Shown in pieces: positions 26,592-29,431 of a stretch of DNA of 64,000 nucleotides. The position numbers were made by a program, and so were the translations under genes. The DNA is taken from contig CM057060.1 in the NCBI GenBank assembly GCA_029945375.1, positions 1,736,001-1,800,000 on the forward strand, read 5' to 3'. Every line of letters starts with the position of its first letter. Position 1 is the first letter of the stretch. This DNA comes from Agaricus subrufescens. Lineage: Eukaryota > Basidiomycota > Agaricomycetes > Agaricales > Agaricaceae. The notes beneath the pieces were generated by a model that was given only the letters and a program-made list of their open reading frames with translations, did no database searches and was not told the origin of the DNA.

Positions 26592-29431
26592 TTAAAGTGC
26601 AGCCATTGACATCCTACCAGGGGAAGGTTCGCCTAAGGCATAAAGACCAGCGATTTCACTCTGGTAGAGCTTCGAGGCTTCTCGGCGTTTGATTTTCATG
26701 GTGGGAGTGAGCGTGCCGTTCTCGATGGAGAAAGGGACAAGGGACAAATGGATTCGCTTGATCATTTCGAATCTACGACATGTAAGATTAATTCAAGGAA
26801 TTCAAGATGAAGCGTTGGAAAGCAAATACTCACCCTCTTAGACCGAGTTTCTGACCATACGCCGTCAACCCACTCAAGAGATGTGCATTCACACGGGCGT
26901 CCTTGATTGCTTCCTCAAGTCCAGCCTGATCCTCTGGGGTGATATGTTTTCCTAAGATCTGGGAAGCGATACCAGCAAGTGAAGGAGGATCCGGGATGAC
27001 GATTCCGACAAGATATGATTGAAGCGAGTCGCCATGGACGTAGATTTGTGCAAGGGAAGGATAGGCGCTGAACAGGTTCTCAATCTTCTCGACAGCGACG
27101 TATTCGCCCTGCGCAAGTTTCATTATGTTCTTGACTCGGTCGATGATTTTGACACGCCCAACGGTATCAATCTCGGCGACGTCCCCAGTATGTAGCCAAC
27201 CTTCTTCGTCAAGGGCTTCTTTAGTAGACTTCGCGTCTATATATACCAAGTGAGTTGAAATAGTCAAAATAACTTGACCGACTTGCCCTTGTAGTATTCG
27301 ACAAATACATTTGCACCACGAACACATAGCTCACCACGAGGGTTTGGCTTGTCTTCGCACGTGTAGCCCAAAGACGGAACATCGACTAACTTGACCTCAT
27401 TGACAGGTATGGGAGGCCCAACAGTGCCACTGGCAGTAGGATCATTAGGCCAAGATCTCGCGCTTGTTGCCATCAGTTCGGTCATGCCATACCTACATTA
27501 CCATACCCATTAGCAAAATCGAATTAACGAAACCGTGAAATTTATACCCTAGTAGTAAATGTTAATTCAGGAGGCGTATAGTCTCGGGACGACATACCTT
27601 CGCTAACTTCACATGCAAATGCAATTTTAATGAAGTCCATAATCTCCGGACTAATAGGAGCCGAGCCACTTGTGACGAGCAGAAGCTGACCCCCAAGAGC
27701 TCTTTGGATCTGAAAAGGGTCTGAGTAGGAGCGAATCAGGATGACAGCTAATGCTTTGACCTTTCGGAAAACTAATCTATCCCAAAGGGGATGAGTATTT
27801 TCGCCCGTGGTGTGGAGCCTTTCGAGTTTGGTTTCCACTGCTTTCCTGAAAATCTTTCCTTTCAAACCAGGGACATTGCCACTAGCCATAGCCGCTTGGT
27901 ATACACGGTTCAGGACACGGGGAACTAAAGGGAAAAGATTAGGCTTAAGGAGTTGTGCATCCTCAAGTAGGCGGAGAGGATCGCCAGAAAAGAACCCGAT
28001 TCGACCACCAACAGCTACCGCACAGAGCTCGCACACTCGCTGCAACAACATTAGATTAGATCAGAGATAATAACAACCAATATACCTGGTAAATATGGGA
28101 AAGTGGTAAAAATGACATGATAGTGCCATCGTCCGGTAAAGACAGGCCGTATAGATTGGCACTGACGGCCATGGCCAGCGACTTATGCGTCAAAACCACC
28201 CCTAACAAACATTTATCTCAGATAAAACATTCTATGCTATCTGAAATGAGCGCTTACCTTTAGGCTTATCGGTGGTTCCCTAGCAGGAGAGCAGTGTAGG
28301 TCTAGCAGCTAGCATAGAGACAAGTGGCTACTCACAGAGGTATAGCAAATGGATGCAATCGTTTCTGGTGACGCTCTGATAGGTTCAATAAGATTAGCCT
28401 TTCCATAGGCTTCAACTAAAGGGGAATGAGTTTTCTGAATAATGTCCATCAATGATGAACGTACCCTCATGCCATTCCTGCACTTTGATGCCAACGGACT
28501 GGCCCCACTCAACGAAAACTTTGGCGGAATGGGCAGGAATACTGTCAATGATAACTACTAATTTCAAGCAAGGAACTTTAGGGACGAGCTTGAGAAGAGT
28601 TGGAACGTGTTCCGAGGTCGCGAATACCACCGTGGTGTGTGCGTGATTGATGCTAAAAAACCAGGTGTGAAAAGGATTCATGATACAAGTGAGAGTCCAC
28701 ATTACATATATTCTGGAAACGATAGAAGACAGAAGATGTTAATGGGGGATGAGAGGCCAAAAGTCTGAAACTCACCAACAGCATCTTTGCCCAATGTGTC
28801 ATACAAGCTCACGGATACCTTCCCGTGTGTCTGCACAGCAATGTCAAGGATTTGCCACTCTGAGCTAGTTAGATGACTATAAGGGTGTGCATGTAAATGA
28901 AACACACCTGGACGATTTATAGACCATATGCCAACGGTTTCGTAGTCACCTCCCCCAACCTCGCCTTTGCTGAAGAGACTGTGTAGAGCACTGCCTATAT
29001 ATCTTCGTTTGTTGTCGACCTCGCCCCAAGTCAGCCACTCATATCGATCCGCGAGTTTGAAAGGATGCGTCGAAAGGATGGGACGATAGCCTAGAAACCC
29101 ACGTTCTCTTCCGGCCTTCAGTCCATCCTCAAAAACTTGATCCAACGTGGTAAATGCCAGAGGATTTTTCTCGTCGAGAAGGCCCCAAATACCTGAAGGA
29201 GAGCATAAGTATGCGATAAGAGGGAAAATTATAGGTGGTATGAACCATTGCGATAGTGAGCTGGCGCAGCCAAAAAAAAAAAGAAAAAAAAAGTCAATTT
29301 TAACTAGCCGAGCCAATTGACGTTGACAGACCAGTTTGTCCAGGGCGTTTCGTTCCAGGGACAGGAATCGACTGTCTATCGAGGGGAAGGTTGTCAGGCC
29401 AGGGGACCACTCGTGTAGTGTTCAGAGGCAT
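26592..29431 (-). CDS. Long-chain fatty-acid-CoA ligase (acyl-CoA synthetase)
   Basis: Activates fatty acids with ATP and CoA for lipid synthesis or beta-oxidation. Fourteen exons on the minus strand: 29431-29332, 29192-28908, 28859-28776, 28712-28706, 28652-28465, 28415-28336, 28279-28258, 28201-28086, 28039-27761, 27709-27598, 27548, 27492-27287, 27236-26834 and 26772-26592, giving 687 residues. Conserved blocks include NRPEWQILD, the P-loop part YTSGTTDKPKGVVLTH, SFLPLSHIYQ, LGGQLLLVTSGSAP, EGYGMTE, TGDVAEID and DRVKNIMKLAQGEYVA. Close to fungal Faa1/Faa4-type ligases and human ACSL. Exon 11 is a single nucleotide that completes the Gly codon of EGYG; exon 4 is 7 nt; the intron after exon 12 has a GC donor. 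No peroxisomal SKL-type C-terminus is seen (it ends MAAL). Confidence 0.95.
27237..27286 (-). other. GC-AG intron in the acyl-CoA synthetase gene
   Basis: The 50-nt intron begins GCAAGT and ends TATAG. Joining gives VEYYKDAKSTKEALDEEG as in homologues. No GT donor nearby has the right phase. Confidence 0.78.
27493..27597 (-). other. Two back-to-back introns flanking a one-nucleotide exon (27548) in the acyl-CoA synthetase gene
   Basis: Intron A, 27597-27549 (49 nt), runs GTATGT to ACTAG. One G follows (complement of C27548). Intron B, 27547-27493 (55 nt), runs GTATAA to TGTAG with a TGCTAAT branch-like site. GAA-G + G + G-TAT-GGC gives the invariant EGYG motif. A single 105-nt GT-AG intron shifts the frame into a stop. 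Confidence 0.78.
28706..28712 (-). other. 7-nt internal microexon of the acyl-CoA synthetase gene
   Basis: The minus-strand exon AATATAT lies between TTCCAG and GTAATG. It supplies Glu-Tyr-Ile of VEYIINHA, conserved in acyl-CoA synthetases. Skipping it changes the frame. Confidence 0.8.

Follow-up and report, generated by a model that had tools for sequence, protein, structure and literature searches.

A probable one-nucleotide exon within the EGYG motif of two acyl-CoA synthetase genes in Agaricus subrufescens

A gene with several very short exons

The window, a stretch of 64,000 nucleotides from a single contig of Agaricus subrufescens, carries on its reverse strand a predicted gene of 15 exons that would encode a protein of 692 amino acids (the 'window gene'). 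Judged by its sequence, the product is a long-chain acyl-CoA synthetase of the AMP-binding family, with the 'long-chain' part of that description taken from homologue names alone: the protein carries the Y-G-x-T-E motif, in the form EGYGMTE, and a 687-residue model lacking exon 2 matches PF00501 (AMP-binding) with a score of 238.7 bits, where the cut-off is 29.9. Among the best 120 of some 7900 protein matches, the closest homologue comes from Agaricus bisporus (P0001, 84% identity), and the next two named matches are from Leucoagaricus (69%) and Macrolepiota (74%). A paralogue lies on another contig of the same genome (the 'C8 copy'), and is used throughout for comparison. The features that concern us here are as follows.

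29431-26592, reverse strand: predicted long-chain acyl-CoA synthetase gene, 15 exons read by homology, 692 amino acids; exons 1 to 15 measure 100, 15, 285, 84, 7, 188, 80, 22, 116, 279, 112, 1, 206, 403 and 181 nt
29246-29260, reverse strand: exon 2, a microexon of 15 nt, CTCACTATCGCAATG (AHYRNG); counterpart in the C8 copy at C8:2215452-2215438
28706-28712, reverse strand: exon 5, a microexon of 7 nt, AATATAT (part of EYIINH); identical in the C8 copy, at C8:2214905-2214899
28258-28279, reverse strand: exon 8, 22 nt (SGTTDKPKG), from the gene model
27598-27709, reverse strand: exon 11, 112 nt, ending GTT AGC GAA G, from the gene model
27549-27597, reverse strand: intron 11, 49 nt, phase 1, GTATGT...TACTAG; donor score 9.6, against a control range of 2.2-10.3
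27548, reverse strand: predicted exon 12 of 15, a single G, the middle base of the glycine codon GGG in EGYGMTE; from the enumeration of splicing arrangements and the C8 copy
27493-27547, reverse strand: intron 12, 55 nt, phase 2, GTATAA...ATGTAG; donor score 3.7, above 3 of 24 control donors
27287-27492, reverse strand: exon 13, 206 nt, starting G TAT GGC ATG ACC, from the gene model
27237-27286, reverse strand: intron 13, 50 nt, GC-AG (donor GCAAGT)

Exon 2 is easily swallowed by a pseudo-intron of 139 nt; a gene model that omits it shows a length mismatch at this point with nearly all homologues, including those we class below as transcript-like, and AHYRN or AHYQN occupies the position in each of the six compared there (P0001 and P0003-P0007). 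Intron 13 was picked by eye, as it yields YYKDAKSTKEAL and fits the homologues; its counterpart in the C8 copy is a GT-AG intron with the donor GTCAGC. Within intron 12, at 27508-27501 of the reverse strand, we also noticed by eye the string GGGTATGG, the letters of the Gly-Tyr-Gly codons, lying 14 nt ahead of the genuine GGTATGG at the exon 13 boundary (TAATGGGTATGG / TAATGTAGGTATGG); it resembles a short tandem duplication, and has no counterpart in the C8 copy.

Splicing arrangements in two diverged copies

To cover the ways in which exon 11 might be joined to exon 13, we enumerated single and double introns of at least 30 nt whose donors were GT, GC or AT and whose acceptors were AG or AC; the stretch covered started 36 nt upstream of the reference donor and ended 30 nt beyond the reference acceptor. 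For the window gene this gave 110 single-intron and 1170 two-intron arrangements, of which 17 and 128, respectively, are in frame and free of stops; exactly one produces EGYGMTE, and it is the arrangement with the one-nucleotide exon, which is also the top-scoring double. For the C8 copy there were 152 single and 879 double arrangements (12 and 107 in frame), and again one, the same one, gives EGYGMTE and has the highest score among the doubles. Both introns thus begin with GT and end with AG, the frame is kept, and the solution is unique in each of the two copies. Joining exon 11 straight to exon 13, so that the G is skipped, reads EGMA-stop in both. The original prediction had placed a single-base exon between two canonical introns of normal size (49 and 55 nt), and had noted that one GT-AG intron would lead to a stop; its coordinates prove correct, and these parts of it are supported.

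The paralogue on C8 was found by a protein search of the genome, and its exons 1-14 are equal in length to those of the window gene. Over 663 codons paired by position the two proteins are 71% identical, with differences of 0.24, 0.13 and 0.48 at codon positions 1, 2 and 3; as third positions differ most, both proteins are under constraint. At the codon in question the C8 copy reads GAAG / GTGTGT...TTGTAG (50 nt) / G at C8:2213742 / GTGCGG...ATACAG (59 nt) / GTATGGC. The likeness of introns 11 and 12 between the copies is at the level of shuffled sequence (z of 0.2 and 0.0), and since the introns are unrelated whilst the exon structure is equal, the arrangement would seem to be old and to have been kept. 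A pattern describing the whole arrangement, built from both genes, has two matches in the 44.65 Mb genome when simple repeats are skipped, namely these two genes, and a reversed control has none. In a phylogenetic tree the two copies belong to separate groups that are sisters to each other (support 99), and A. bisporus is represented in both, which places the duplication before the split from A. bisporus; the one-nucleotide exon is likely to be older than that duplication. In two distant paralogues on contigs C1 and C4 (approximately 32% identical), the codon preceding the tyrosine is interrupted by one phase-1 intron, its boundaries read by eye.

As controls we used 24 introns of the two genes that are fixed by homology, with lengths of 46-71 nt and donor scores of 2.2-10.3. 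The introns beside the single bases (49 and 55 nt in the window gene, 50 and 59 nt in the C8 copy) fit this range. The donors of intron 12 are weakish, at 3.7 in the window gene and 5.8 in the C8 copy (the latter above 5 of the 24 controls). Branch-like motifs (YTNAY) are found 13 and 17 nt before the ends of introns 11 and 12, as TTAAC and CTAAT in the window gene and as CTGAT and CTGAC in the C8 copy; a match is present in 23 of the 26 introns checked, and the motif is too loose to weigh much. A de novo survey of introns in 264 kb, made for length and splice-site statistics, was set aside, as false positives likely dominate it (medians of 110 and 124).

Homologues and other readings of the motif

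Two protein searches, each taken as the best 120 of approximately 7900 matches, gave 182 distinct homologues, which we divided by source and contig size. Twenty-five, from jgi, lgn or ena sources only, sit on contigs 2.2-5.6 kb long, with protein lengths of 674-713 amino acids in 24 cases and of 600 in P0085; because the gene has 14 introns, we infer that contigs this short are transcripts, and call these homologues 'transcript-like'. The other 157 are NCBI-sourced. Among these 182 listed homologues, the EGYG motif is malformed in 63 of the 157 NCBI-sourced proteins (40%) versus none of the 25 transcript-like ones (Fisher p = 1.6e-5), and the first 120 alone give 45 of 100 versus 0 of 20. Variable N- and C-terminal ends aside, the motif is the worst seven-residue window of the protein, followed, in the interior of the protein, by the 7-nt exon 5, where the length is wrong in 20% of the 157 and in 0 of the 25. 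The defect is a one-residue insertion in 24 of the 63, and a skipped motif or a translated intron in the rest. All 25 transcript-like homologues read EGYG(M/L/S)TE; they are all from other species, and a non-canonical intron would read alike, so that they bear out the protein sequence and not the one-nucleotide exon as such. P0169 and P0172 (EGYGSTE) were counted as well formed, the length of the motif being right. The data point to a recurrent annotation error, which leaves 63 of the 157 listed NCBI-sourced homologues malformed at an invariant motif.

Malformed cases span Russulales (Stereum), Boletales (Hydnomerulius), Polyporales (Trametes), Gloeophyllales (Heliocybe) and Agaricales (Mycena), and the two A. 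bisporus proteins orthologous to the C8 copy (P0007 and P0040) are among them. The 94 NCBI-sourced homologues that are well formed, amongst them P0001, which is the window gene's orthologue in A. bisporus, may come from species that lack the structure, which would then be many, or from annotation that used RNA evidence. On a tree of 184 proteins the malformed label requires 45 changes, against a shuffled mean of 52.6 (as low in 2 of 500 shuffles); it is scattered over the tree, as annotation luck would give, and provides no date for the exon. The clade around Coprinopsis has 0 of 6 malformed. Several species of Polyporales carry two copies, in two sister clades. Within this order (P0130-P0170) one clade has 10 of 17 malformed and its sister clade 0 of 15 (p = 0.0003, for clades chosen after the tree was seen), as if the split codon had been retained in one copy only, in the manner of the plant gene VPS55 discussed below.

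Three models with long inserts, P0019, P0027 and P0119, can be read as retaining an intron 11 (of 57, 51 and 48 nt) that ends in CAG and has a G after it, which by this hand count is weakly compatible with a one-nucleotide exon. A search for orthologous DNA returned only two bacterial loci of no use (L023 and L024) from genome contigs, and nothing from viral contigs. Protein models suggest that the one-nucleotide exon is probably widespread in Agaricomycetes. We would go further only with reserve, and give an even chance to the idea that it is ancient and inherited across several orders of this class (Agaricales, Boletales, Russulales, Polyporales and Gloeophyllales), that it has persisted because AG-G-GT in a GGG glycine codon suits the consensus of both splice sites as well as the protein, and that skipping, which stops translation at once, acts as a built-in check on splicing.

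Of the other ways to read the locus, the one that fares best is a single canonical intron whose donor lies 4 nt downstream (GTNN|GT), such that the proteins would really be one residue longer, with EGMYGMTE in the window gene and EGVYGMTE in its C8 counterpart. In both copies this keeps the frame and meets no stop, and in the window gene it is a canonical in-frame solution with a single GT-AG intron, 101 nt long and ending at the normal acceptor; a donor at +7 would add Met-Ser. The original prediction, which stated that all the alternatives tried fail, thus missed one that does not. That 24 of the 63 malformed models have an insertion at this very position (EGX, then Y or F) could be taken to favour this reading, but such an insertion is found in none of the 25 transcript-like homologues, and the motif is aligned without one in the five PDB alignments examined. 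The +4 donor scores 0.2 in the window gene and -2.7 in the C8 copy, under all 24 control donors (minimum 2.2), and the extra Met lowers the Pfam AMP-binding score from 238.7 to 232.1 bits. The identity of the inserted residue is of little help: the codon NNG that this donor would generate fits 16 of 23 cases (P0114, with EGSFG, left out), which is uninformative because 13 of the 20 amino acids would fit anyway. On balance we hold a true extra residue to be highly unlikely.

Slimmer still is the prospect of one non-canonical intron of 104-109 nt, ending for instance in TA here and in CA in the C8 copy. The mRNA would be identical to that expected from a one-nucleotide exon, so cDNA alone, the check put forward in the original prediction, cannot separate the two readings; against it, different non-canonical ends would be needed at the same place in two copies, each of which offers a wholly canonical AG-G-GT between two stretches of intron size.

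It is also conceivable that an error of sequencing or assembly has dropped a base, and that splicing removes one intron of about 105 nt; the picture would be just the same if a G had been lost from a run of Gs next to either splice site. The same error would, however, have to recur at the same codon of the C8 copy, on a different contig, and the presence of that second copy with the same structure makes this explanation very unlikely, to a degree that we place below the two preceding ones. A chance AGGGT between two intron-sized stretches would likewise be needed twice: in dinucleotide-preserving shuffles, AGGGT with at least 40 nt on each side arises at frequencies of 0.020 (2.0%) for the window gene and 0.046 (4.6%) for the C8 copy, and AG-any-GT in 3.5% and 11.7%, with both genes in fact having AGGGT. 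Finally, one intron of 105 nt, or of 110 nt in the C8 copy, would be longer than all 24 controls. Least probable of all, and barely worth entertaining, is a stwintron, in which an internal intron interrupts the donor, branch site or acceptor of an external one: two adjacent introns would indeed be removed in sequence, as in stwintrons, but both donors and both acceptors are contiguous and uninterrupted, so that the twin-intron origin floated in the original prediction does not apply in the defined sense of the term.

Proposed splicing and comparison with known one-nucleotide exons

Synthesising these observations, we are highly confident that the G at 27548 is a constitutive one-nucleotide exon, with introns 11 and 12 likely to be removed in turn, each recognised as an intron, and with the G completing the GGG of EGYGMTE. 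Splicing itself, the order of removal and the constitutive use of the base are inferred from the DNA; the replication internal to this genome is good, in that two diverged copies keep the exon. The mature mRNA would have the junction GAAGGGTATGGC, and a skipped form would read GAAGGTATGGC.

Short introns are recognised across the intron, and it is unlikely that exon-definition factors, or two spliceosomes at a time, would find room on a single nucleotide; we therefore envisage sequential reactions, in which intron-defined removal would amount to a recursive-like scheme with one base retained. Either order of removal would be workable because the letters of the sites repeat themselves: the donor of intron 12 would be presented as AGG|GT both before the removal of intron 11 (TAG+G) and after it (AAG+G), and the acceptor of intron 11 would have GGT next in line before and after the removal of intron 12. 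Failure to include the G would give a truncated product, the message for which would probably be destroyed by decay. As to origin, intron 11 would occupy an old phase-1 position, common to the two distant paralogues, and intron 12 would be a later gain, one base further on, made before the two copies split.

At recursive splice sites, a donor stands next to the junction once the first intron is out; the proposed scheme is akin to this, with the differences that one base would be retained and that the introns are very short. In a zero-length recursive splice site the acceptor AG abuts the donor GT and nothing is retained, whereas here one G stands between AG and GT and the frame breaks without it. 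In both copies the base has AG and GT as flanks, each half is a usable intron, and frame and motif need the base, which is what would be expected of a single-nucleotide exon. Fungal stwintrons, as described in passages of two reports (PMC8469720, PMC12403724), are two adjacent U2-type introns removed in succession, as we propose here, and differ in that the window gene has uninterrupted donors and acceptors and would keep one base.

Exons of this kind are rare, as the original prediction supposed, but less so than it allowed, since plant VPS55 (PMC8831610) and Fusarium CYP621A (PMC12940212) are on record besides APC11 of Arabidopsis. In the relevant passages of the APC11 report (PMC4674806), the exon is a base A in a stretch of 422 nt, proven by base substitution; as here, the base is needed for the frame, although at our locus it is a G between introns of 49 and 55 nt. 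The portions of PMC8831610 available to us describe the APC11 and VPS55 exons as conserved across land plants and missing from reference annotations, and for VPS55 they give support from RNA-seq and RT-PCR, alternative inclusion in some lineages, and cases in which one of two copies lacks the exon. VPS55 thus resembles our case as a conserved, misannotated one-nucleotide exon, and differs in being a plant gene with RNA support. Excerpts from a paper on a plant microexon database (PMC12409088) name only APC11. The one-base exon of placozoan cox1, to go by part of its report (PMC5436844), is mitochondrial rather than nuclear and spliceosomal.

The closest parallel is CYP621A of Fusarium, where, according to passages of the report (PMC12940212), the G of an AG-G-GT forms the second base of the glycine codon of the PKG motif, and there are RNA reads from two species. 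Its authors count it there as the second case overall and the first in fungi, a count that overlooks VPS55. Shared with the present case are the single G, the AG-G-GT context, the position in the middle of a glycine codon of a conserved motif, the two introns, a frame that is broken without the base, and misannotation by pipelines; the differences are that the gene there is an ascomycete P450, and here a basidiomycete acyl-CoA synthetase, with two paralogues in one genome, read from DNA. The agreement in letter, context and codon position suggests a testable rule, namely that such exons would be expected to gather in GGN glycine codons within essential motifs, these being the codons in which the exon-edge consensus and the coding need coincide. 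We found no one-nucleotide exon of a basidiomycete in print in the parts of the open-licence PMC literature that we covered; the exon described here would be of a known kind, in what would be the fourth nuclear gene, and the first from a basidiomycete, among the cases found.
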